This document shows, one piece after another, positions 16,479-29,716 of a stretch of 64,000 nucleotides of DNA. Position 1 is the first letter of the stretch; the number at the start of each line of letters is the position of its first letter. Origin of the DNA: Christiangramia portivictoriae DSM 23547 (GTDB lineage: Bacteria; Bacteroidota; Bacteroidia; Flavobacteriales; Flavobacteriaceae); NCBI RefSeq assembly GCF_000423045.1, contig NZ_AUHF01000007.1, positions 1 through 64,000 of the forward strand, in the 5' to 3' direction. The notes beneath the pieces are model-generated. The model had not been told where the DNA came from, did not search any database, and worked only from the letters and a program-made list of their open reading frames with translations. The translations under genes and the position numbers were made by a program.

Positions 16479-19211
16479 TTATTCTTTCAGATCGGCTGTT
16501 TTTAATCTCAAAGCATTGGCAATCACTGAAAAACTGCTAAAGCTCATCGCCAGAGCTGCGATCATGGGAGAAAGTAATATTCCGAAAACAGGATATAGTA
16601 CACCCGCCGCGACTGGAACACCTACCGTATTATAGATAAGAGCGAAAAAGAGATTTTCCTTGATGTTCCTCATTACTTTCTGGCTCAATAAAATCGATTT
16701 CCTGATACTGCGCAGATCTCCATTAACCAGTGTTAAGGCAGCACTTTCAATGGCGACGTCTGTCCCGGTTCCCATAGCTATTCCAACATCAGCTTTTGCC
16801 AGAGCAGGCGCATCATTAATACCATCGCCGGCAACCGCCACGATCTTCCCTTTTTTCTGAAGTTTTTCAACTTCTTCAAGTTTGTTCTGGGGAAGCATCT
16901 CAGCTTTGAACTTATGTATCCCAATGGCTTGTGCCACCGCAGCTGCAGTATTTTTATGATCTCCGGAAATCATGATCACCTCAACACCATGATCTTGCAG
17001 TTCCTGTATCACTTTCTTTGTGTCTTTCTTGATCCTATCGGTGATGACCACATAGCCCTTGACCTCTGTATCAATGGCAATATAACTTACTGTATTTCCT
17101 CTTTGCTGTTCTTCGGAAACACTGGCAACAAGATCTGAACTAATTTTTATTTGATTCGCGTCCATAAGCTTTTTGTTGCCAAGAAAGACGCGGCTCTTTT
17201 CGAGAGTTCCGGTTACCCCCTGTCCTGTTTCCGATTCAAAATCTGAAATTGCTAAAAGTCCAATTTCGTGCTTTTCCGCATAATCGACAGTTGCCTGCGC
17301 GAGGGGATGTTCGCTATGAGTGTTCAAACTGGCAATGATGGCTGTAAGCTTTCCTGAAGTATATTCCGAAGAAACCGACACTACCTTATCCACACTTGGT
17401 TTGCCTTCTGTAAGCGTGCCAGTCTTATCAATAATGAGCGTATCCACTTTGTTCAGCCGTTCCAGAGATTTCGCGTTTTTGATTAATATACCATTACTCG
17501 CACCGCGACCAATACCCACCATTACAGACATTGGAGTTGCCAGACCCAGTGCACAGGGGCAGGCGATGATTAATACAGCAATAGCATTTACCAGCGCGTA
17601 CACTAATGCTGGTTCCGGACCGAAGATGGACCAGATGACGAATGTAACCGCTGAGATGATTACTACTACCGGCACGAAATAACCCGAAATCTTATCTGCT
17701 AGCTTCTGAATTGGCGCCTGTGATCTACTGGCTTCATTTACCATTTTGATGATCTGGGCGAGTAGGGTATCATCCCCTACCTTCTGCGCTTTCATGATAA
17801 AAGATCGATTCCCATTGATGGTACCTGAGCGCACTGCATCTCCTTTTTGCTTATCTACCGGAACAGGCTCTCCAGAGATCATCGATTCATCGATACTGCT
17901 TTCTCCTTCTATAATCTCGCCATCCACAGGAATCTTATCTCCTGGTTTTATTTTTAACAGATCATCTTTTTCGATTTTGCTGGCGCTAATTTTTTCTTCC
18001 TTTCCATTTTTGACTCTAAGTGCAGTATCGGGTTGTAATTTCAATAGTTCCTTAATGGCAGAGTTGGTTTTGCTGTGTGCCCGGGCTTCCAGGACCTGCC
18101 CCATCAGGACTAAGGTAAGTATGACAGTGGCGGCTTCAAAATAGACGTGCACGGTTCCCGATTCTGTTCGAAACTGCGCTGGAAAAAAATCTGGCACCAA
18201 CATTCCGAAAACACTAAAAGTCCAGGCTACACCTGCCCCTATCCCTATAAGCGTAAACATATTCAGATTCCAGGTAATGATGGATCGCCAGGCTCGCTGG
18301 AAGAACATCCAGCAGGTATAGAACACAACTGGCAGCGAAAGTCCAAATTGTATCCAATTCCATGTTCTGGCATCAAACCAAGTTTGCAAGGTATTATTTG
18401 GCACCATATCAGACATGGCGATGATAAAAATAGGGATTGTAAAAGCCAGGGATAGCCAGAATTTCCGAAGTAGTTTTTGATAGCCTTTTTCCTCGGTAGA
18501 AGGTTCTGGCTGCTTGGGTACAAGATCCATCCCGCAAATTGGACAATCTCCGGGTTCATCCTTACTCACTTCCGGATGCATGGGGCAGGTAAATTCCACA
18601 GATTTCTTATTGGTATTGATCTCTTCGACCAGGTCCATTCCGCAAACCGGGCAGTCGCCAGGTTGATCATAAGTTTTATCCCCTTCGCAATGCATGGGAC
18701 AATACCAGACACCCTTCCCGTTCTTCGCAGGATTTTTTGTTTGTGTTTTATCTTCAGGCCTGGTAGTCCCTGGTCTATGAATGGTATAGTTCCCTCCTGC
18801 CTGCTCTAGCGCTTTTTGTAATTCCTTCAGCGAAACTGGTTCTTTCATTTCAAGAATTGCTTCTTCATTATGAAGATCTACTTCTGCTGAAGCAACTTGA
18901 TTCAGATTCCCAAGTGTTTTTTGCACATGCATTTTACAACCATTACAGGTCATTCCATGAACATCATACGTTTCAATGATCATCCCATCATCATTCCTTT
19001 GGAATTCCTCAATACCATAATTTCCGCCTTCCGACTCCAGTTTATTTCTGAGTATCGACATATGAAAATCCTGTTCTGCCGCTATAGTCGCAGTTTCATT
19101 CTGCAAATTGACTTCCACGAAATCAACACCGTCCACCTCTGCAAGTGTTTCTTCCACATGTTTGCGGCAGCCGTTACAACTCATTCCTGTAATCTTGTAA
19201 GTTTTTTTCAT
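16479..19211 (-). CDS. copA: Copper-translocating P1B-type ATPase with two HMA and two HMBD domains
   Basis: 910-aa inner-membrane Cu(I) export pump. Domain order: HMA 1 (CNGC at 12-15), HMA 2 (CNGC at 89-92), heavy-metal-binding module 1 (about 169-194, CPMHCE then GDCPVCGMDL), module 2 (about 208-231, CPMHPE then GDCPICGMDL), transmembrane segments from about 250, actuator loop with SGEPVP near 446, the CPC ion-binding motif at 551-553, and phosphorylation Asp595 in DKTGTLT. Length exceeds typical CopA (about 800) because of the two extra modules. It is the last gene of the copper cluster but has its own promoter element at 19236-19243 and lies beyond the csp terminator. Confidence 0.96.
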   Translation of the reverse strand: MKKTYKITGMSCNGCRKHVEETLAEVDGVDFVEVNLQNETATIAAEQDFHMSILRNKLESEGGNYGIEEFQRNDDGMIIETYDVHGMTCNGCKMHVQKTLGNLNQVASAEVDLHNEEAILEMKEPVSLKELQKALEQAGGNYTIHRPGTTRPEDKTQTKNPAKNGKGVWYCPMHCEGDKTYDQPGDCPVCGMDLVEEINTNKKSVEFTCPMHPEVSKDEPGDCPICGMDLVPKQPEPSTEEKGYQKLLRKFWLSLAFTIPIFIIAMSDMVPNNTLQTWFDARTWNWIQFGLSLPVVFYTCWMFFQRAWRSIITWNLNMFTLIGIGAGVAWTFSVFGMLVPDFFPAQFRTESGTVHVYFEAATVILTLVLMGQVLEARAHSKTNSAIKELLKLQPDTALRVKNGKEEKISASKIEKDDLLKIKPGDKIPVDGEIIEGESSIDESMISGEPVPVDKQKGDAVRSGTINGNRSFIMKAQKVGDDTLLAQIIKMVNEASRSQAPIQKLADKISGYFVPVVVIISAVTFVIWSIFGPEPALVYALVNAIAVLIIACPCALGLATPMSVMVGIGRGASNGILIKNAKSLERLNKVDTLIIDKTGTLTEGKPSVDKVVSVSSEYTSGKLTAIIASLNTHSEHPLAQATVDYAEKHEIGLLAISDFESETGQGVTGTLEKSRVFLGNKKLMDANQIKISSDLVASVSEEQQRGNTVSYIAIDTEVKGYVVITDRIKKDTKKVIQELQDHGVEVIMISGDHKNTAAAVAQAIGIHKFKAEMLPQNKLEEVEKLQKKGKIVAVAGDGINDAPALAKADVGIAMGTGTDVAIESAALTLVNGDLRSIRKSILLSQKVMRNIKENLFFALIYNTVGVPVAAGVLYPVFGILLSPMIAALAMSFSSFSVIANALRLKTADLKE

Positions 19212-19328: not shown

Positions 19329-19649
19329 TTATGCCGCATAAGCCTCACAGGCTTCCACGCATTCTTTACAGGCTTTTGCACAATCCTGGCAATGTTTGTG
19401 TTCATGCTTTCCACATTCATCGGCACAGGCCTGGCAAACTTTTTTGCAATAATCTACTAAACCCTGCACGTCCTTATAATTAGTGGCAAGAACCTGGTTT
19501 AGGGTAGAACAAACTTCCGCACAAACCCTGTCGGTTCTAATACAGTCTTTCATCATTTTCACATTGTCTTCATCAAGACATGCATCAGCACAGTAATTAC
19601 AATGGTTAATACAATTTCCAAGTGCGCTGATTAGCTTCTCATTTCTCAT
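19329..19649 (-). CDS. Four-helix-bundle copper-binding protein (DUF326/Csp-like)
   Basis: 106-aa soluble protein with 16 cysteines (positions 13, 17, 20, 24, 36, 43, 47, 68, 72, 75, 79, 87, 90, 94, 97, 101), mostly in CxxxC, CxxC and CxxxxxxC spacing along predicted helices, plus a His-rich turn (HEHKH, 82-86). This is the pattern of copper storage proteins (Csp), whose helices point Cys thiols into a core that binds many Cu(I) ions. There is no signal peptide or Tat motif, so it should be the cytosolic Csp3-like kind. It sits between the AraC-type regulator and copA. Confidence 0.9.
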   Translation of the reverse strand: MRNEKLISALGNCINHCNYCADACLDEDNVKMMKDCIRTDRVCAEVCSTLNQVLATNYKDVQGLVDYCKKVCQACADECGKHEHKHCQDCAKACKECVEACEAYAA

Positions 19650-20332: not shown

Positions 20333-20363
20333 GGATCAGGCCGAACTGATTCCGGCCTGATCC
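20333..20363 (-). terminator. GC-rich hairpin between the DUF3347 lipoprotein and AraC-type genes
   Basis: 11-bp perfect stem (20333-20343 with 20353-20363), 9-nt loop, starting 9 bp after the DUF3347 stop codon. The following minus-strand sequence is AT-rich but lacks a clean T-run, so it may be a weak terminator or an mRNA-stabilising 3' hairpin. Confidence 0.6.
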
Positions 20364-20372
20364 TATGTATTT

Positions 20373-20942
20373 TTACATGATGGTATTATCAACTCTACCA
20401 CATTTTAGCATCTTATCTCCAAAATAAGGATTTCTGATCTCTTCTGAATTAGAATACCAATAATCTCCTTTTCCTTCGAATGCCATCGGGCAAAATTGCT
20501 TGTAGATCTTCCCGGAAGAAATGGCTTCCTTCAGAACGGGTTCCATTGCTGCCGTTAGTTCTGAAAAAATCTCTCTTTGTACATTTACATCTTCAGTTTC
20601 TACCAGCTTTCCTGCGATTTCAGCGATCTCTGGCTGAGCTTCGGTTAGTGTGTTCTGAAGGTTCTGAGCAGATTTACCCGCAGCAGCAGCATTAGTTCTA
20701 ACCAACGCATCTTTTACTGACAGGTATTCCTCGTAAGCCTGAGTTACATTCTGATCACTGAACTCTGCATTAGCCTCTTCAGAAACTTTTTCAGATTTCA
20801 TATCTTCAGAATGATCGCTCATTTCAAGTTTCTCTTCAGAAACCTGCTCATTATTTTCTTTCTTATCATCTCCACAGGAAGTCAAAATTAAACTCCCGGC
20901 GATCAAACTCATAGTAATTAAACTTCTTACTTTCATTTTCAT
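20373..20942 (-). CDS. DUF3347-domain periplasmic lipoprotein
   Basis: 189 aa from the ATG at 20942; a longer upstream reading has no signal-peptide logic. Lipobox LTSC (Cys23) after a hydrophobic stretch. Residues 27-60 are acidic with scattered Met and His (EMSDHSEDM). The DUF3347 domain spans about 66-185 and ends with CPMAF (Cys151, Met153), NPYFG and KMLKCG (Cys181). The same C-terminal pattern closes the adjacent CusB-like protein. The paired Cys/Met residues suggest periplasmic Cu(I) binding or delivery to the efflux pump (inference). It lies downstream of the DUF305 gene in the copper cluster. Confidence 0.85.
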   Translation of the reverse strand: MKMKVRSLITMSLIAGSLILTSCGDDKKENNEQVSEEKLEMSDHSEDMKSEKVSEEANAEFSDQNVTQAYEEYLSVKDALVRTNAAAAGKSAQNLQNTLTEAQPEIAEIAGKLVETEDVNVQREIFSELTAAMEPVLKEAISSGKIYKQFCPMAFEGKGDYWYSNSEEIRNPYFGDKMLKCGRVDNTIM

Positions 20943-20997
20943 ATTTATAATTATTAGGTATTGATATTTGACGTATCTAAACTGTTTATATAACAAA

Positions 20998-21483
20998 TTA
21001 CTTTTTCTCCAGTTTCTCAATTAGTTTTTTCATTTCGGCAATCTCCTTTTCCTGCGCTTCGATAATTTCTTCTGCAAGTTCTTTAACTTCCGGATCATCA
21101 ATATCTGCTCTTTTACTAGTTAAAATCGCTATGGAGTGATGCGGAATCATCGCTCTCATATACATTACATCATCTACGATAGGTGCCTGCGCACGTACCA
21201 GTCCCAGAGCACCAAGAAAAAGAATCACACTTCCGGCATAGATCGCGATATTCTTTTTCCTGTTCTTATACATTTTTAGCATTAAAGACAGCATTATTAC
21301 GGCCATCGTTGAAATCCCGAGACAGGTCATGTAAAATCTGGTCATACTAAAATACACGTGATCGACCTCATAGGTATTTAGGTACATGGTGATATACATC
21401 GCCATAAAAGAGAGACCTAACATCAGAAAAAATCTGGTGTAGTTATTACCGCTATGTTTCATTTGACTTTCTTTTGAATCCAT
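20998..21483 (-). CDS. DUF305-family membrane protein
   Basis: 161 aa. Three hydrophobic segments (about 17-37, 48-69, 78-97) anchor a C-terminal DUF305 helix-rich part. It carries the family motif YMRAMIPHHSIAIL (His115, His116), a Met/His pattern found in DUF305 proteins such as CopM that bind copper. The C-terminal helix is rich in Glu and Lys. It starts 22 bp after the cusB stop, so it is probably co-transcribed with the CusABC genes. Its soluble part is likely periplasmic. Confidence 0.87.
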   Translation of the reverse strand: MDSKESQMKHSGNNYTRFFLMLGLSFMAMYITMYLNTYEVDHVYFSMTRFYMTCLGISTMAVIMLSLMLKMYKNRKKNIAIYAGSVILFLGALGLVRAQAPIVDDVMYMRAMIPHHSIAILTSKRADIDDPEVKELAEEIIEAQEKEIAEMKKLIEKLEKK

Positions 21484-21505
21484 TTTTTTAGTTTTTGATT
21501 AGTAT

Positions 21506-23194
21506 TTATTTGAGTTCTGAAGTCACTTCCCCGCAGGTAAGCATCGCATTACCGTAATAAGGATTTTTAACTTCTGAAGATAGGCTTAACCAGTCGGCAC
21601 CCCGATTATTATTAGCCATTGGGCAATGCTGAACATAAATAGTTTTGTCAAGATTATCCATATTACCAGCGATCGCTATCATTTGCTGAGATAAGATCCT
21701 GAAATTCTCCCGCTGGCTCTCCAGATTTCTATTTTCGGAAATCTTTTCAAGCATTTCTGTGATTTTATTTAGATGAGACTGAATTATTTTAGTTGAATTA
21801 TTCAGATTAATTTTTTTGGAACTATTATACAGTTCTGAAGCTATTTCTGAAGTTTTCTCGGGGTTAGAAGCTATAAGTGCATCTTTCAATTTGAAATAGT
21901 CGCTCAGTAATTCTTTGAAGTCCTCCTGAAAAGATTCTGAAAGTTTCTTATCCATCTTCATTTCAGAAGATTTAGAGTAAGTCTGATTCATCATCGATCT
22001 TTTTCCCTGCAGTTGTGCCGCAGCATCTACCGTAAAAGTCCCGTTGGTCACAATCTCTTCTCCTGAAGAAAGTCCGTCAAGAACCTGGTAAGTTTCTCCG
22101 CTTGTATTTCCCAATTTCACCTCTCTCATTTCGAAAACTGGCTGAGATCCGGCTGCTTTTACGTAAACCAGCGATCGCTCACCTGTCCACATCACGGCAC
22201 TTTTAGAAATTTCCAAACTTTCAGTTTCTGAAGCGGTCAAATTTTCTACCTCAGCTTGTACGAACATTCCGGGTTTTAGATCATTATTTCGATTATTCAG
22301 CACCACGCGGACTTCCACTGTTCTGGATTCCTGATTCAGAATAGGGTCGATAAATGAGATTTTTCCGGTGAAATCTTCATTTGGCAAGGCACCTACCGAA
22401 ATTTCAAGATTCTGACCTTCTTTCAAATTCGATATCTGAGATTCGTAAGCATCAAAGACAGCCCAGACAGAATTCAGGTTCGAAACCTTTAAAATCGGCA
22501 TCCCATCATTAATATGAGAACCTTCCTCAATCATGATCTCGGTAACCGTCCCGTTTACATGAGAATAAATAGGAATGGAATTTCTCACGTTTCCTGAACT
22601 TTCAATCTCATCCAGCATTGTATCGCTAATCTTCCAGTTTTTGAACTTATTTCGCACTGCATGATATAATTGAGGTTGAGAATTTTTCAGTTTCGCCGCA
22701 GTGATCAATTCCTGCTGTGCTGCTACAATTTCCGGAGAATAAATATTTGCAATGGTTTGTCCCGTACTCACTTTATCTCCAACAGTGTTTACATAGAGCT
22801 TTTCTACCCGACCATCGAAATGTGCCGGCATCGCTGCGTTCTGATCGTCGTTCACTTCGATCTTGCCAGAAAGATCTATTCTTCCATCCGTTCCGTTTCC
22901 TTCGCCAACTATCGTGGTCTGAATATTGGCAAGTTTCATCGCATTTTCGGTCATGCTGAATTGATCTGTACGCAATCCGTCTGAAGTTGCATCAGCAGGA
23001 ATAAGATCCATACCGCAGATAGGGCAATCTCCCGGCTCAGGTTGCATAACTTGCGGATGCATCGAACAGGTCCACATTTCATTAGTTTCAGCTTCCTGGT
23101 GATCATGAACTTCTTCCGAAGAATTATTAAAAATCACGTATCCCAGTAACAGTCCGGCGATGATTAGCAGTAAATAAATTGTATATTTTTTCAT
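21506..23194 (-). CDS. cusB: CusB-like RND periplasmic adaptor with HMBD and DUF3347 domains
   Basis: 562 aa. In order: N-terminal membrane anchor (4-22), a His/Glu-rich stretch, a heavy-metal-binding module (41-65, WTCSMHPQV then GDCPICGMDLIP), the adaptor core (barrel-sandwich, alpha-hairpin and beta-barrel, about 95-400), and a C-terminal DUF3347 domain (about 425-560) ending with HCPMA (Cys524), NPYYG and MLTCG (Cys554). E. coli CusB is about 407 aa and lacks the DUF3347 part. It bridges CusA to the outer-membrane channel and passes Cu(I) to the pump. The gene lies 1 bp after the cusC-like stop. Confidence 0.93.
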   Translation of the reverse strand: MKKYTIYLLLIIAGLLLGYVIFNNSSEEVHDHQEAETNEMWTCSMHPQVMQPEPGDCPICGMDLIPADATSDGLRTDQFSMTENAMKLANIQTTIVGEGNGTDGRIDLSGKIEVNDDQNAAMPAHFDGRVEKLYVNTVGDKVSTGQTIANIYSPEIVAAQQELITAAKLKNSQPQLYHAVRNKFKNWKISDTMLDEIESSGNVRNSIPIYSHVNGTVTEIMIEEGSHINDGMPILKVSNLNSVWAVFDAYESQISNLKEGQNLEISVGALPNEDFTGKISFIDPILNQESRTVEVRVVLNNRNNDLKPGMFVQAEVENLTASETESLEISKSAVMWTGERSLVYVKAAGSQPVFEMREVKLGNTSGETYQVLDGLSSGEEIVTNGTFTVDAAAQLQGKRSMMNQTYSKSSEMKMDKKLSESFQEDFKELLSDYFKLKDALIASNPEKTSEIASELYNSSKKINLNNSTKIIQSHLNKITEMLEKISENRNLESQRENFRILSQQMIAIAGNMDNLDKTIYVQHCPMANNNRGADWLSLSSEVKNPYYGNAMLTCGEVTSELK

Positions 23195-23195
23195 C

Positions 23196-24407
23196 TTATT
23201 GATTATTAAGAGTAAGGTATTTCACAACGGCATCATGCTTGAACCAGCTGCTCACCGCTACAATGAGATTTATCTGAATTTTCAATCGTATTTCCTGAAT
23301 ATCCAGAACATCATCAAAATCTATGGTTCCGGTTTCATATTGTTTTAAAAGCAATTCTTCGACATCTTGAGCCTGAGAAAGGTTATCTGACTGTGTTTCG
23401 AATTTGATCCTTGCTGAAGTTCTTTCATTTAAAGCTGAACTTAATCTACTGTCCAGATCGTTTAAAGCTGCATCACGATCAAAAGAGATCTGTTCTTGCT
23501 TCAGTTCATTTTGCCTGGAAACTGAGCGATACTTTTTATTAAAGATAGGCACCGAAAACGAGACCATCGGCATCACAATGTCTTTTCCGTTATCTGAGAA
23601 ATCCATGTCCGGTCTTTCCTGAACACTCACATAATCAAGACCAAAGCCCAATTTTGGTGCAGATTCCTGCTGATTTAGTGCTTCAGAATTGCTGATACTT
23701 TCAGCAAATTTATCATACCTCTGTAATTCGGGATGCAGGGTAATATCTATATTTTCGGTTTCCTGCATCGGAATGATCAAGGTATCCTGAACATCCACAT
23801 TTTCATCATCAGTATTCAATAACTTATTGAAACTTATCCTCAACGCATCCAGCTGAAGCCTGATTATTTTAATTTGTTCCTCTAGATCATTCTGGCGCAT
23901 TTTAAGTCTTAAAACCTCTACCGCCGAAGCTTTCCCGACTTCTATTGAATTTAGCGCAATCGTTCTATAAACTTCCAGCAGGTCGATATTCTGCTGTAAA
24001 ACTTCCAATTTTTCTTTCAATTCATAGATATCGAAATAGACCTGCGAAACATTCAGTTTCAAATTTCTTCTGGCGATTTCAAGATCTGCTTCTTCCACGC
24101 TTACCATAGAACCTGCATAATCTTTTCTGGATTGAATAGTTCCAAACCAGGGAATCATCTGTCTAACAGAAACTCTAAATTTCTGGGCACCAGTCCTGGT
24201 TTCCGGCTCACTAATAAAATATCCAATACCGAATTCTGTATCAGAAAGTGCATTTACTTCATTGATCCTTTCCTCGGCAATTTCGATAGAAGAATTCATG
24301 GATTGAATCTCCGGATTGTTTTTTAAAGCGCGGTTTTGATAATCCTCCAATTTTTGGGCCTGCACTAGAACCGGAAGAAATAGTAATATTGCTATTATAT
24401 TTTTCAT
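23196..24407 (-). CDS. TolC-family outer-membrane channel of the copper efflux system (CusC-like)
   Basis: 403 aa from the ATG at 24407. The open frame extends upstream to 24599, but that part only overlaps cusA and lacks a signal peptide, whereas MKNIIAILLFLPVLVQAQ is one. Long amphipathic alpha-helices rich in Gln, Glu and Asn with two OEP repeats, as in TolC channels. It forms the outer-membrane exit for CusAB. Its start codon overlaps the cusA stop by 4 bp (ATGA), showing translational coupling. Confidence 0.9.
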   Translation of the reverse strand: MKNIIAILLFLPVLVQAQKLEDYQNRALKNNPEIQSMNSSIEIAEERINEVNALSDTEFGIGYFISEPETRTGAQKFRVSVRQMIPWFGTIQSRKDYAGSMVSVEEADLEIARRNLKLNVSQVYFDIYELKEKLEVLQQNIDLLEVYRTIALNSIEVGKASAVEVLRLKMRQNDLEEQIKIIRLQLDALRISFNKLLNTDDENVDVQDTLIIPMQETENIDITLHPELQRYDKFAESISNSEALNQQESAPKLGFGLDYVSVQERPDMDFSDNGKDIVMPMVSFSVPIFNKKYRSVSRQNELKQEQISFDRDAALNDLDSRLSSALNERTSARIKFETQSDNLSQAQDVEELLLKQYETGTIDFDDVLDIQEIRLKIQINLIVAVSSWFKHDAVVKYLTLNNQ

Positions 24408-27400
24408 GATCTGTGTCTTTTTAATTGAGCTTCTTTTCTCCAACTGAACAGCACCGGCACTACGAATAAAGTGATCAGCGCAATCAACATTCCTCCAAAA
24501 GCAGGGATCGCCATTGGGATCATAATATCGCTTCCACGACCTGTTGAAGTCAAAATTGGCAGTAAAGCGAGAATGGTTGTGGCCGTAGTCATCAAACATG
24601 GTCTGATTCGCTTTTCTCCTGCTTCAATCACCGATTGCCTGATTTGCTTTCTATTATCCGGAGAATTTGCATCGAAAGTCTGAGTAAGATAAGTTGCCAT
24701 CACCACTCCATCATCTGTAGCAATACCGAAAAGTGCGATAAAACCGACCCATACCGCAACACTTAAATTAATCGTTTTAATTTGAAATAACTGCCTGATG
24801 TTTTCTCCAAATAAACTGAAATCCATGAACCAGTCCTGTCCATAGAACCAGATCATAAGAAATCCGCCACCAAAAGCAACTGCAATTCCGGCGAAAACCA
24901 TCAGTGAGGTTGATACCGACTTGAATTGAAAGTAAAGGATCAGTAAAATGATCAATAAAGATAGTGGTACAACCAGTGATAGTGTTTTTTCAGCTCTCAA
25001 CTGGTTTTCGTAATTCCCGGTAAAGCGATATTTAATACCGGCAGGAACTTTCAATTCTCCGGAATCTATCCTCTCCTGTATAAGATCCTGCGCATTTTCA
25101 ACCACATTCACCTCAGCAAATCCATCAAGCTTGTCGAATAACACATAACCGGTGAGAAATGTGTTCTCACTTTTTATCACCTGAGGACCTTGCTCATATC
25201 TTATATTTACCAATTCGCCTAATGGAACAGGCGCTCCATTTTCTACAGGCACATAAATATCTTTTATATTTTCGGGGCTGGCACGAAGTTCCCGAGGATA
25301 TCTAACCCTTATGCCATAACGCTCTCGACCCTCAACCGTTTCGCTCAATTGCATACCGCCAACAGCTACCTGGAGCACTTGCTGGACCTCATCTATGGAA
25401 ATCCCATAACGAACCAGTTTTTCACGTTGAATGTCGATTAATAAATAAGGTTTTCCTACAATTCTATCGGCAAAAACTGCCTCTTTTTTAACACCTTCGG
25501 CTTGTTTCAGAATATCTTCTAGTTGCATTCCAAATTCCTGAATTTGTTTAAGATCCTGCCCCTGAACCTTAATTCCCATTGGTGCCCGCATACCGGTTTG
25601 CAACATAATCAACCGGGTTTCTATAGGCTGCAGTTTTGGTGCTGAAGTAACGCCTGGCAGTTTTGTGACCCTGGCGATCTCATTCCAGATATCTTCAGGA
25701 GTCTCGATCTCAGGTCTCCAGTTTCTGAAATATTCACCATCTTCATCTGGAATCAACTGCGCCGAATTTATTTTCAACGGATTTATAACTAAAGATTGCT
25801 GGTATTTCTCGCGATTTTCAACTTCAGAATTAGGATTAGCCGCCAGTTTTCCATTTTTCAGCACAAAGAATCCATTCTCGTTAACCTGATATTTTTGCCT
25901 TTTCCCATTCTCATTCTCCATGTATTCTGTCTTGTACTGGATGATATTTTCATACATGGACAATGGAGCAGGATCTAGGGCAGATTCTGTTCTTCCAGCT
26001 TTTCCAACCACGGTTTCAATTTCCGGAAGACTGGCCACTGCCATGTCCAGTTGCTGAAGAACTCTCTTATTCTCTTTAACTCCGGAATGTGGTAATGAAG
26101 TTGGCATCAGTAAAAAGGAGCCTTCATTGAGGGAAGGCATAAATTCTTTCCCGGTATTCTTCATAATAAAGAATCCGTTAAGGATGATCGCTGCAGGAAT
26201 GGCCAGAAACAATGCTTTATTTTCCAGCGTCCAGGTTAATATCCGCACATAAAATCTTTTAAATAAAAAGAACACGGCAAGAAGTCCGAAACAGATAACG
26301 CCTACAAAAATTAGATTAAACAGAACACTGTTTTGAAGACCGAGTGGTCTCCAGTAGACTGACAGCAAAACTACAATCGTAACAATAGCAACAATGATCT
26401 TGAACATTTTACTCTGTACTTGATCTATCTTATCTAATTTCAATAATAGGTCCATAATTCCGAAAGCTATCAAAGCAAGACCTATTAGGTATCCGAAAAT
26501 TATCGCTGCGATCCCCAATGTGATCAGAACAGCAGGAAATATGAAGCTGATTTCCTTTCGGAAATTTCTTTTCTTAAATAGAATAGCCGCAAATGGAGGG
26601 ATAAGAAATAAAGCAACTAGTATTGAAGCAGTCAAAGCCATGGTTTTCGTGAACGCCAGCGGTCTGAATAATTTTCCTTCAGCACCAACCATGGTGAAAA
26701 CCGGAATAAAACTGATGATCGTCGTTAATACCGCGGTAAGAATCGCTCCGGAAACTTCAGCAGTAGCTTCATATACTACCTGATTCACCGGTCGGTCATT
26801 TTGCATGTCCAGATGCCTTATGATATTTTCGGAAAGAATGATTCCCATATCCACCATGGTCCCAATTGCGATAGCAATACCTGAAAGAGCAACAATATTG
26901 GCAGAAACCCCGAATATTTTCATCGATACGAAAACCATCAACACGGCAACTGGTAATAATCCTGATATTAGGATCGACGCTCTTAAATTGAAAACCATGA
27001 TTATGATTACCAGGATAGTGATCAGGATTTCCATAATTAAAGCCTCGTTTAATGTTCCTAATGTTTCCAGAATGAGTTCAGTCCTATCATAGAATGGAAC
27101 GATCGTAAGTTGCGATTCGGTTCCATCGCTTAAAATTTTAGAAGGTAAACCTGAGCTGATCTCATTAATTTCATCTTTTACATTGTTGATCACTTCCATT
27201 GGATTTGCACCATAGCGAGCCACTACTAATCCCCCAACAACCTCAGCACCTTCTTTATCAAGGATTCCACGGCGAGAAGCTGGTCCCATGGAAACATTGG
27301 CAATGTCTTTGATCCTGATAGATGTAAAATTTTCTGAAGTCACCACGGCATTTTCAATATCTTCCACAGACTTTACGTAGCCAAGTCCTCGCACGAGGTA

Positions 27401-28138
27401 TTCCGCCTGATTGATCTCCAGAGTTTGTGCACCTATCTCGCGATTACTTTCCTTAACCGCCATGACTACCTGATCCAAACCGATATTATACTGCCGCATC
27501 AATTCTGGCTTTACATCGATCTGGTATTCCTGAACATAACCTCCAATACTGGCAACTTCTGAAACCCCACTAACTCCTGATAGGGCGTATTTCACATAGT
27601 AATCCTGAATACTTCTTAATTCCTGAAGATCCCAGCCACCAGTCACATTACCATCTTTATCACGACCTTCCAGCGTATACCAGAATATCTGGCCCAGCCC
27701 TGTTGCATCGGGTCCAAGCTTTGGATTTACTCCTTCAGGCAATAGGTTGTCAGGAAGAGAATTCAACTTTTCGAGGATTCGGCTTCGACTCCAATAAAAC
27801 TCTACATCCTCTTCAAAAATGATATAGATACTGGAAAACCCGAACATAGAAGAACTACGAATCGTTTTCACCCCGGGAATTCCGAGTAAACTCGTGGTTA
27901 AAGGATAGGTAATCTGGTCTTCGATATCCTGCGGAGATTGGCCAGACCATTCGGTAAAAATGATCTGTTGATTTTCACCAATATCAGGAATTGCATCTAC
28001 GGCAACCGGATCGTTCGGAAGCAAACCCGTGTCCCAGTTAAAAGGTGAATTCATGATTCCCCAACTAACCAGTACTGCCAGTAATATAAAGGCAATGAGT
28101 TTGTTTTCGATAAAATATTTAATGCATTTATTCAGCAT
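24404..28138 (-). CDS. cusA: CusA/CzcA-type heavy-metal RND efflux pump, long form
   Basis: 1244 aa from the ATG at 28138 (MLNKCIKYFIENKL); upstream in-frame codons lack family similarity. Inner-membrane proton-driven trimeric exporter of Cu(I)/Ag(I). HME-RND features include the early DAIPDIGENQQIIFTEW and GQSPQDIEDQITYPL segments and the transmembrane charged motif around VALSGIAIAIGTMVDMGI. E. coli CusA has about 1047 residues. The extra length includes a hydrophobic insertion at about 520-630 with three or four extra membrane-spanning stretches. Coupled to the TolC-like gene by a 4-bp overlap. Confidence 0.95.
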   Translation of the reverse strand: MLNKCIKYFIENKLIAFILLAVLVSWGIMNSPFNWDTGLLPNDPVAVDAIPDIGENQQIIFTEWSGQSPQDIEDQITYPLTTSLLGIPGVKTIRSSSMFGFSSIYIIFEEDVEFYWSRSRILEKLNSLPDNLLPEGVNPKLGPDATGLGQIFWYTLEGRDKDGNVTGGWDLQELRSIQDYYVKYALSGVSGVSEVASIGGYVQEYQIDVKPELMRQYNIGLDQVVMAVKESNREIGAQTLEINQAEYLVRGLGYVKSVEDIENAVVTSENFTSIRIKDIANVSMGPASRRGILDKEGAEVVGGLVVARYGANPMEVINNVKDEINEISSGLPSKILSDGTESQLTIVPFYDRTELILETLGTLNEALIMEILITILVIIIMVFNLRASILISGLLPVAVLMVFVSMKIFGVSANIVALSGIAIAIGTMVDMGIILSENIIRHLDMQNDRPVNQVVYEATAEVSGAILTAVLTTIISFIPVFTMVGAEGKLFRPLAFTKTMALTASILVALFLIPPFAAILFKKRNFRKEISFIFPAVLITLGIAAIIFGYLIGLALIAFGIMDLLLKLDKIDQVQSKMFKIIVAIVTIVVLLSVYWRPLGLQNSVLFNLIFVGVICFGLLAVFFLFKRFYVRILTWTLENKALFLAIPAAIILNGFFIMKNTGKEFMPSLNEGSFLLMPTSLPHSGVKENKRVLQQLDMAVASLPEIETVVGKAGRTESALDPAPLSMYENIIQYKTEYMENENGKRQKYQVNENGFFVLKNGKLAANPNSEVENREKYQQSLVINPLKINSAQLIPDEDGEYFRNWRPEIETPEDIWNEIARVTKLPGVTSAPKLQPIETRLIMLQTGMRAPMGIKVQGQDLKQIQEFGMQLEDILKQAEGVKKEAVFADRIVGKPYLLIDIQREKLVRYGISIDEVQQVLQVAVGGMQLSETVEGRERYGIRVRYPRELRASPENIKDIYVPVENGAPVPLGELVNIRYEQGPQVIKSENTFLTGYVLFDKLDGFAEVNVVENAQDLIQERIDSGELKVPAGIKYRFTGNYENQLRAEKTLSLVVPLSLLIILLILYFQFKSVSTSLMVFAGIAVAFGGGFLMIWFYGQDWFMDFSLFGENIRQLFQIKTINLSVAVWVGFIALFGIATDDGVVMATYLTQTFDANSPDNRKQIRQSVIEAGEKRIRPCLMTTATTILALLPILTSTGRGSDIMIPMAIPAFGGMLIALITLFVVPVLFSWRKEAQLKRHRS

Positions 28139-28224
28139 ATAATAAGAGTTAAAAATTAGAATTTGGCGCATAAAGCGAGAAGCCACGGCAAAATATGCGT
28201 GGTTTAAAAACTAAAATCTAACTA

Positions 28225-28617
28225 TCAAATAAGGAAAACCTGGTCTTCCAACTGAATATCGGAAACCAGTAAAGGAGGGGAATAATCTTTAAATGGAATG
28301 ATCTGCTTTGGCAGACTTTCAAAAAGATTGAGATAAGCAAAAGAAAAAGTGGTAATGAATAATTGCTCATGGAAATCGAAAGAATCAAAAGATATTTTCA
28401 ATTCATCCTGACCTTCTACCGAAACCTTTTCATTGGTACAACAATGAGATTCAGCATCAGCAGACATTTGCATTCCACAGGTCTTAGCTTTTGAAAATAC
28501 GGCTTTATCAACAAGATGACTTCCGCAGAAATGTTTATCTACCGTAAAAGACATCGTAGATAGCAGGACCATAAAGGCCATGCTTAAAGAAACGATATGT
28601 TGAAAAGCTTTATTCAC
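28225..28617 (-). CDS. HYC_CC_PP-family protein
   Basis: 130 aa from GTG at 28617. A longer reading would start at a TTG at 28626, inside the likely -7 promoter element, so GTG is preferred; an ATG at 28581 is a shorter option. N-terminal hydrophobic signal or anchor (to about 25), then the family's conserved pieces: HFC (His29, Cys31), Cys47, the HCC pair (Cys59, Cys60) and SPP (Pro114, Pro115). This Bacteroidota family is typically seen beside copper/heavy-metal efflux genes. Function is unknown; periplasmic metal binding is a reasonable inference. It is 86 bp upstream of cusA and probably heads the cluster. Confidence 0.85.
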   Translation of the reverse strand: MNKAFQHIVSLSMAFMVLLSTMSFTVDKHFCGSHLVDKAVFSKAKTCGMQMSADAESHCCTNEKVSVEGQDELKISFDSFDFHEQLFITTFSFAYLNLFESLPKQIIPFKDYSPPLLVSDIQLEDQVFLI

Positions 28618-28623
28618 TAACGG

Positions 28624-28631
28624 CAAAGGTA
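28624..28631 (-). promoter_or_regulatory. -7 element at the head of the copper cluster
   Basis: Reading leftward, TACCTTTG (TAnnTTTG). It overlaps the first codon of the longest reading of the HYC_CC_PP gene, forcing a downstream start. No clear TTG at -33, which is compatible with an activator-dependent promoter. Confidence 0.5.
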
Positions 28632-28733: not shown

Positions 28734-29171
28734 TCAACTTAATTTTTTATTGATTCTATAATAATAGAATGCGGGAAGCAATACCAACAGAAATAAAGGA
28801 TGAATGAGAAATCTCCTAACATAAAACAACGCAAGATAATGTTCTCTTTCAATATTAAGCACCAGAAATATAAAAGCGCTCACAGCTCCTACATAAAGCA
28901 ATGCATATAGAATCACAGAAAATTTGATCATGCTTCTGTTTCTAAACGCGATATAGATAATAGCGATCGAAATAATACTATTAAGTGTGAAACGTATGCT
29001 GAGATGTATCATGAGCTTTGCCATATTCATAGGTGGAATGATACCAAGCAGATAATCTGACCTGAAAAACGCTATTAATGGATCGTAGAATAGACTATCT
29101 TCAAAAAAACGTATCGCTGCAAGTAGCAAAACCATGAAGCCAATAAGAATTATCTTATATCTTTTCTTCAT
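28734..29171 (-). CDS. Exosortase F system-associated membrane protein
   Basis: 145-aa integral membrane protein with about four or five hydrophobic segments and no catalytic motif. In Flavobacteria a small membrane protein of this kind (TIGR04127-like) is regularly encoded directly after exosortase XrtF, and the 4-bp ATGA overlap with xrtF here matches. Its role in the XrtF sorting system is unknown. The assignment rests mainly on position, size and topology. Confidence 0.75.
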   Translation of the reverse strand: MKKRYKIILIGFMVLLLAAIRFFEDSLFYDPLIAFFRSDYLLGIIPPMNMAKLMIHLSIRFTLNSIISIAIIYIAFRNRSMIKFSVILYALLYVGAVSAFIFLVLNIEREHYLALFYVRRFLIHPLFLLVLLPAFYYYRINKKLS

Positions 29172-29716
29172 GCTTTTTTGTATTTAGTGAAGATGCGTAT
29201 CCATACCAGCCAGAGCAGGAAAACCATTCCGTAGATCGCCAGTGGAAAAAATACGGTGTGCATAAAACCAGAATACTGCGGGTATTCAAGAATACTTACC
29301 GAAAGGATAACAATTCGCAAGATGTTAGTTGCATAAATAAGTGCCGAGCCGGCTAAAATATAGATCAATGTCGTGGAGGTCTTTCCGAAGAAAGCAAGAA
29401 TAAAGGAAGTGAATAATATAATAATACTTGCCGAATTGCATCCTTCCACGATACCGGCCAGAAAATGACCTTCCACCATTAGTTTCATGGATAGTCCTGT
29501 ATAATGCATTACCACTTCCACATTATCGTAGCCCAACGCATGCATGACATCTCCACTCTGGTAAGCAACCAATCTCGTGATGGCGTCTGGTACTGGCTGA
29601 GTTTGCTCATAAAACAGCAGAAATGCGTTGTAAGCACTGGAAAAAAGAAAATAGCTCCCCAGGAACACAAATATAAAACGCAATACCGTTCTGTATTTCT
29701 TGATGAGTTTCAGCAA
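29168..29716 (-). CDS. xrtF: Exosortase family protein XrtF
   Basis: 182-aa polytopic membrane cysteine transpeptidase-like protein. The exosortase triad is visible: Cys93 in VEGCNSA, Arg134 in TNILRIV and His153 in GFMHTVFF. Exosortases cut and sort proteins bearing a C-terminal PEP-CTERM-like tail. The start is TTG at 29716: an in-frame stop lies upstream and the next Met is residue 58. A -7 element 20 bp upstream supports this start. No protein with a matching sorting tail was recognised in this window. Confidence 0.9.
   Translation of the reverse strand: MLKLIKKYRTVLRFIFVFLGSYFLFSSAYNAFLLFYEQTQPVPDAITRLVAYQSGDVMHALGYDNVEVVMHYTGLSMKLMVEGHFLAGIVEGCNSASIIILFTSFILAFFGKTSTTLIYILAGSALIYATNILRIVILSVSILEYPQYSGFMHTVFFPLAIYGMVFLLWLVWIRIFTKYKKA

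Follow-up and report, generated by a model that had tools for sequence, protein, structure and literature searches.

DUF3347 as a probable copper-binding module of a Cus-type efflux cluster in Christiangramia portivictoriae and other Bacteroidota

The 64,000-bp window analysed here (positions 1 to 64,000 of contig NZ_AUHF01000007.1 of Christiangramia portivictoriae DSM 23547) contains a copper cluster in which the domain of unknown function DUF3347 (PF11827) occurs twice: once fused to the C-terminus of CusB, the periplasmic adaptor of a Cus-type resistance-nodulation-division (RND) efflux pump, and once as a free lipoprotein encoded two genes further on. Comparison with other genomes indicated that DUF3347 probably has a metal-handling role through the binding of Cu(I) and, slightly less firmly, that it is a likely periplasmic Cu(I)/Ag(I)-binding module serving the pump. 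A transfer of Cu(I) from the free to the tethered copy is proposed tentatively, by analogy with known systems.

The two DUF3347 copies, their motif and the C-terminus of CusB

A PF11827 profile search of the whole 3.27-Mb assembly revealed these two copies only. In the window, the profile matched the CusB open reading frame (ORF) with 59.2 bits (cut-off 25.5; residues 430-514 of 562) and the free ORF with 41.9 bits (same cut-off; residues 96-165 of 215), which confirmed the double occurrence described in the initial annotation. The terminal pattern which that annotation had noticed in both proteins was also found, as CPM(17)NPY.G..M..CG, in each of them and in none of 100 shuffles; its conserved set, given there as two Cys and one Met, was correct for the Cys and consists of two Cys and two Met. 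The mechanically assigned TTG start of the free gene (position 21020) falls within the preceding DUF305 gene, and the start is likely ATG 20942, with a product of about 189 amino acids. The lipid tether proposed for this protein agrees with a lipobox pattern (LTSC) read at Cys 49 of the long ORF. The lipid Cys is followed by GDDKKE, which partly resembles the surface export signals QKDDE and SDDFE (PMC5080379), and it is therefore doubtful to some extent whether the free copy faces the periplasm. CusF (PF11604) had no match in either DUF3347 protein or anywhere in the genome, as had been annotated, and neither copy can be assigned to that family; the DUF305/CopM-like gene lying between the two copies had been overlooked as a rival shuttle.

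The motif, in the more general form CPM...W.S...NP...M..CG, starts 5-11 residues after the end of the Pfam match, so that its presence in all 32 Pfam-hit loci checked, two being the window's own, is an independent check of its conservation. In the fetched regions, C, M, M and C were each present in 120 of 121 domain rows; the last row has a gap there. Rows collected by way of the CusB core, and not of the motif, kept C in 76/76, M in 75/76, M in 76/76, C in 76/76 and W in 76/76, with the limit that their domains were then recognised by a DUF3347 profile containing the motif, by which motif-less domains could be missed. Conserved Arg, Trp, Asn and Pro residues accompany the four sulphur residues. 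Alignment A2 and loci L123-L241 were gathered with the motif pattern, and their motif invariance, being by construction, was excluded as evidence; alignment A1 was selected with a looser motif, with one odd row (L116) omitted. The PF11827 model ends ahead of this stretch, the best conserved one of the domain, and does not recognise some members, for example in L132 and L196; a longer model would help.

AlphaFold2 modelled the free domain with high confidence (predicted local distance difference test, pLDDT, 97.0; predicted template modelling score 0.91) as four helices followed by short strands which bear the motif, and not as the oligonucleotide/oligosaccharide-binding (OB)-type beta-barrel of CusF (PMC4446572). 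The VIA fold list was headed by a histidine phosphotransfer protein (Z 8.9) with the motif region barely covered, and nothing was concluded from it; for a helical bundle, such a likeness may reflect a common arrangement. A single-sequence fold of whole-length CusB gave a pLDDT of 40 and was not used.

The strongest indirect argument for metal binding came from the C-terminal position of CusB. Relatives were defined as proteins with at least 250 bits to the CusB core of the window, a maximum of four candidates being scored per genome, and numbered 86 besides the window's own. Their C-termini consisted of DUF3347 in 76, an HMA-like domain in four and a second HMBD in two (G389 and G160, by Pfam), while three had no tail and one reached the contig end. 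Three of the four HMA-like tails were scanned and scored 26.3, 24.7 and 21.0 bits (cut-off 24.8), two of them falling short. A more distant CusB (L033) ends in CusF according to Pfam, and its genome has no Pfam DUF3347 match. HMA and HMBD, which are Pfam families separate from DUF3347, are also found fused to it in free proteins: four longer ones scanned with Pfam (L045, L092, L100 and L103) gave one HMA just under the cut-off and one HMBD. Because the same CusB position is filled by metal-binding families (HMA, HMBD and CusF), DUF3347 would be expected to bind metal as well.

The CusA of the window keeps Met at the places aligned with M573, M623 and M672 of Escherichia coli CusA (residue list from PMC11213822; offset of 7 inferred), and genes for multicopper oxidases, Haem_bd and DUF302 proteins occur in further DUF3347 loci. 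These copper Met residues and copper-gene neighbours, together with the swaps at the C-terminus of CusB and the four nearly invariant sulphurs, make Cu(I) binding by DUF3347 likely and speak for the metal-handling role suggested in the initial annotation.

Distribution, free partners and CusF

A Pfam DUF3347 match was found in 134 of 395 sampled Bacteroidota genomes, which is a low count since five genomes (G042, G089, G108, G159 and G297) have a CusB with DUF3347 by the custom profile and escape Pfam. The domain was present in 71 of the 81 genomes with a close CusB compared to 63 of the 314 without (p ~8e-30). CusA was rejected as a discriminator for being too general, with TIGR00914 matching 393 of the 395 genomes (314 over cut-off). 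A motif scan of GTDB species genomes yielded at least 119 stretches; among the matches listed, most were labelled as Bacteroidota and the others as Idiomarina, Aliidiomarina, Planctomycetota or Phycisphaerales, Opitutales, Verrucomicrobiales, Kiritimatiellia, Lentisphaerae, Myxococcota, Deltaproteobacteria, Gemmatimonadetes, Delongbacteria and Aminicenantes. The plasmids CP094847.1 and NC_011414.1 (about 14.8 kb, Ornithobacterium rhinotracheale) carry a gene annotated DUF3347, and 15 plasmid records match.

The 120 DUF3347 ORFs in the fetched regions comprised 65 short, 39 CusB-length and 16 intermediate ones; some regions were picked by hand among the top-scoring matches and included many loci with two hits and nine with CusF, and free-plus-fused counts are therefore biased. 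For the tree, 261 of 262 ORFs were used (258 different), 22 cut ones were dropped (236) and near copies were removed, leaving 186 rows with few columns and a bootstrap that was not settled. In this tree, the fused and free labels changed 12 and 17 times, respectively, compared to about 59 and 63 times when shuffled, which represents strong clustering of the two forms. The window's two copies fall in different clades and thus look like old paralogues, and not like a recent duplication.

The window lipoprotein lies within a supported clade of 23 free proteins, where its nearest relative is that of Zunongwangia atlantica (61.7 percent identical), whose gene directly adjoins cusB-DUF3347. Within the window's 12-row subclade, the whole genomes of the 11 other members contained CusB-DUF3347 in nine cases, at 10 kb or less from the free gene in seven; in an eighth genome (G417) CusB-DUF3347 stands beside a second free copy. 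The pairing of free and fused copies noticed in the window is thus a recurring one. Another subclade member, an Aquimarina metagenome-assembled genome (MAG; 2.7 Mb), has no close CusB. A partnership of two copies of the same fold, as had been suggested, did not hold as a requirement, since free DUF3347 also pairs with CusB that is HMA-tailed (L089) or untailed. In Eudoraea adriatica, the remaining subclade member without CusB-DUF3347, an untailed CusB of 423 amino acids and one free DUF3347 are encoded in one cluster, a natural fission, and in a second untailed case (G059) free DUF3347 genes lie upstream. What these gene arrangements have in common is the pairing of a free with a tethered module rather than a single fold. 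Lipid anchoring seems optional: in the 23-row clade, 15 proteins agree with a simple lipobox pattern (that of L231 looks spurious) and three more are near-lipobox by eye, and plain signal peptides are present by look in L064, L066, L096, L098, L206 and L231.

CusF was matched in 37 of the 395 Bacteroidota genomes (358 without) and co-occurred with DUF3347 in nine, with no significant association in either direction (Fisher p 0.27). In these nine genomes a contig boundary or a distance of more than 800 kb separates the two genes, although the contigs are fragments and some of the genes could still be close; within the 8-15 kb around the nine CusF genes, nothing matched the CusA, CusB or CusC of the window. 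Ten CusF proteins were read (best locus, ten of the 37 genomes): eight had CusF plus an SCO-like part (by eye), one was a CusB-CusF fusion (Pfam) and one was short. Two operons of an Idiomarina MAG and one operon of another genome of its family have the order cusC-cusB(DUF3347)-cusA-cusF, with cusF directly after cusA and a DUF3347-tailed cusB in each (L319, L322 and L325), which shows that the free neighbour of a tethered DUF3347 can be a CusF. That DUF3347 and CusF strictly exclude each other, a possibility raised in the initial annotation, is ruled out by the nine genomes with both and by these three operons in two genomes; the sharing of an operon, named there as the case against the proposal if frequent, does occur and cannot be called frequent.

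In the Idiomarina-family sample, DUF3347 was present in four of 59 genomes, and the two other than the CusF-bearing ones have a DUF3347-tailed CusB and no CusF match. One of these two (G459) encodes, at 7231-9555 of L323, a CusB of 774 amino acids with two tandem DUF3347 domains. The CusF proteins encoded after cusA in the Idiomarina MAG (L319, 9007-9366) and in Aliidiomarina maris (L320, 3122-3481) differ in one residue of 119, and this near identity suggests recent cluster transfer.

Gene content of the copper cluster

On the minus strand, the cluster is ordered as the HYC_CC_PP gene, cusA, cusC, cusB, the gene of the DUF305-ended protein, the free DUF3347 lipoprotein gene, a hairpin, and the genes of an AraC-type regulator, a Csp-like protein and a P1B ATPase (Table 1). 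CusB was classified as a CusB-type adaptor of the heavy-metal efflux (HME)-RND group, with an HlyD_D23/CusB core, encoded together with CusA and CusC, and with 95.9 bits against the E. coli CusB chains. The DUF305 part exceeded the PF03713 cut-off (27 bits) and covered 58 of 151 positions; against the CopM model NF049983 it scored 45.6 bits, below the cut-off of 90, and is not assigned to CopM.

The CQRC segment at the N-terminus of the AraC-type regulator resembles a heavy-metal-associated half, Pfam recognising the helix-turn-helix alone, and a regulator of this kind is a possible copper sensor; its relatives recur in DUF3347 loci. The HYC_CC_PP family (NF047658) is found upstream of cusA in 17 of 63 partly overlapping loci whose CusA is nearly full-length, and is possibly a further metal-binding partner. 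Upstream of the copper cluster, positions 29168-29716 encode a membrane protein which we take to resemble the exosortase family.

Table 1. Features of the copper cluster in the window, with supporting matches.
Feature	Position	Strand	Evidence
Small Cys/His protein of the HYC_CC_PP family, upstream of cusA	28225..28626	-	NF047658, 132.7 bits (cut-off 28)
cusA, heavy-metal RND pump	24404..28186	-	TIGR00914, 790 bits (cut-off 701.45)
cusC, outer membrane factor	23196..24599 (ORF)	-	PF02321, 160.9 bits; true start probably ATG 24407 (by eye)
cusB, RND periplasmic adaptor, 562 aa	21506..23194	-	HlyD_D23 core, 229.4 bits; N-terminal HMBD; C-terminal DUF3347
HMBD of CusB	22994..23074	-	PF19335, 41.5 bits, residues 41-67
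DUF3347 fused to CusB (Pfam extent)	21653..21907	-	PF11827, 64.1 bits (genome search)
Motif of fused copy, CPM...NPYYG..MLTCG (two Cys, two Met)	21531..21625	-	Pattern match
Protein with hydrophobic N-terminal half and C-terminal DUF305 (CopM-like) part, between the DUF3347 copies	20998..21483	-	PF03713, 44.2 bits
Free DUF3347 lipoprotein	20373..20942	-	PF11827, 44.5 bits at 20526-20735 (genome search); likely ATG 20942
Motif of free copy, CPM...NPYFG..MLKCG	20398..20492	-	Pattern match
Terminator-like hairpin, 13 pairs, directly after the lipoprotein gene	20333..20363	-	Consensus scan only
AraC-type regulator with N-terminal CxxC (CQRC) segment	19744..20310	-	PF12833, 62.9 bits; CQRC read from sequence
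Four-helix copper-storage-like (Csp-like) protein	19329..19649	-	PF03860, 47.6 bits (cut-off 20.4); TIGR04401, 45.7 bits (below cut-off 100)
Copper P1B-type ATPase with two HMA and two HMBD stretches	16479..19211	-	TIGR01511, 587.7 bits (cut-off 397); Pfam

Proposed role, alternatives and known systems

In the proposed mechanism, the two Cys and two Met would form one soft-metal site per domain. The free copy would gather periplasmic copper and deliver it to the adaptor, and the tethered copy would accept the metal arriving there and relay it toward CusA, by analogy with SilB of Cupriavidus metallidurans, a CusB-type adaptor with a C-terminal CusF-like domain (PMC4446572, citing Bersch 2011). 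In a broader form, which we consider plausible and hold with a little less than even confidence, CusB-type adaptors would bear a C-terminal, swappable metal-relay socket in which unrelated modules (DUF3347, HMA, HMBD and CusF) were exchanged in evolution, the free partner likewise being DUF3347 or CusF, with DUF305/CopM as a further candidate; DUF3347 would then represent a class of periplasmic Cu(I) chaperones undescribed in the papers searched.

Several observations weigh against a pump-serving copper module. Neither sequence nor fold comparison found a solved relative of DUF3347, Foldseek giving 0 matches in the PDB at E 0.001. The 63 genomes which carry DUF3347 without a close CusB indicate that other settings exist, and the three untailed CusBs of the sample (that of G394 with two in-frame stops in the match) indicate that the tail is not essential. 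DUF3347 is also not a simple replacement of CusF, because both share operons.

A serious alternative, although an unlikely one, is that the two conserved Cys form a disulphide and that DUF3347 is a redox or structural domain, either a thiol-disulphide partner or a docking module, with no metal site. The periplasm is oxidising, which counts for this explanation, and the Leptospira model NF047615 (LIC13259/LIC11441) matches both window copies weakly, that of the free protein to the last model position, with 34 and 28.4 bits, below its curated cut-off of 100. For LIC13259, a distant relative by NCBIfam score only, an intramolecular Cys108-Cys133 disulphide is predicted and thiol-disulphide exchange with C8gamma was shown (PMC13344006), which would also speak against copper binding by DUF3347 if these Cys are the counterparts of its own. 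The role reported there is complement evasion via disulphide exchange, and the words 'copper' and 'metal' are absent from the available text of that paper. A plain disulphide would not need the two Met, which are as conserved as the two Cys in DUF3347, and the explanation fits poorly with the exchange of the CusB tail for metal-binding families and with the copper genes in the neighbourhood.

Similarly improbable is that DUF3347 acts in both places as a copper sink for buffering or storage, the copies working separately and exchanging no metal. Consistent with this, 42 of the 68 free rows outside the window's clade have no fused CusB within 2.5 kb and no CusA or CusC within 6 kb (many loci are short), in the 19-kb locus L090 neither CusA nor CusC is matched and DUF3347 adjoins a Haem_bd gene, and fused and free copies mostly group apart in the tree (12 and 17 label changes). 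That the domain is fused to the adaptor in 76 of the 86 relatives is easier to reconcile with delivery to the pump than with mere storage.

Less probable still is that the DUF305/CopM-like protein is the copper shuttle or sink and that the free DUF3347 protein is an accessory or surface lipoprotein which does not feed CusB: the window gene exceeds the DUF305 cut-off, CopM of Synechocystis, a DUF305 protein, binds Cu(I) with a KD of ~3e-16 and gives resistance (PMC4335983), a relative of that gene recurs in 22 of 199 DUF3347 loci (some overlap), and the GDDKKE stretch would suit the surface, but the loci with a DUF305 gene are just a fraction of the total, CopM reportedly acts independently of the CopBAC pump (PMC4335983), and some free members of the window's clade, with a plain signal peptide, look soluble.

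Compared to known systems, the putative pump-serving module is closest in layout to SilB, in which a metal RND adaptor likewise has a C-terminal extension that exists elsewhere as a stand-alone protein; the likeness is of layout only, the tail of SilB being a CusF beta-barrel, whereas the tail in the window is predicted to form four helices, carries a Cys2Met2 motif and is not matched by PF11604. As in the E. coli CusCFBA system, a gene for a small periplasmic protein accompanies that of a CusA in which these key Met residues are kept, and E. coli CusF and CusB exchange metal (PMC4446572); the differences are that PF11604 is absent from the window copies and the genome, that the predicted fold is another one and that CusF is unfused to CusB in E. 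coli. In the flavobacterium Bizionia argentinensis, CusF was sought and none was found (PMC11213822). CopM likewise binds Cu(I) in the periplasm of a cell that has an HME-RND system, and the window's in-between gene has a DUF305 part; it belongs to a family distinct from DUF3347 and is without Cys (PMC4335983). No functional paper on DUF3347, its motif or the CusB extension was found among the open-licence papers searched.

The published precedent is SilB, and what is new here is the predicted fold and the swappable position. On the sequence evidence, DUF3347 is a widespread, probably copper-binding module that makes the system of the window a variant of the known pairing of an adaptor with a metallochaperone. 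How periplasmic copper is passed to RND pumps has been described mainly for CusF and CusB of E. coli. If DUF3347 is a working substitute of CusF, a widespread domain of unknown function would gain a testable role, and the swaps at one position of the adaptor would represent a natural experiment on what a metal-relay domain requires. If the socket interpretation is true, the fold would matter less than the presence of one free and one tethered soft-metal site.

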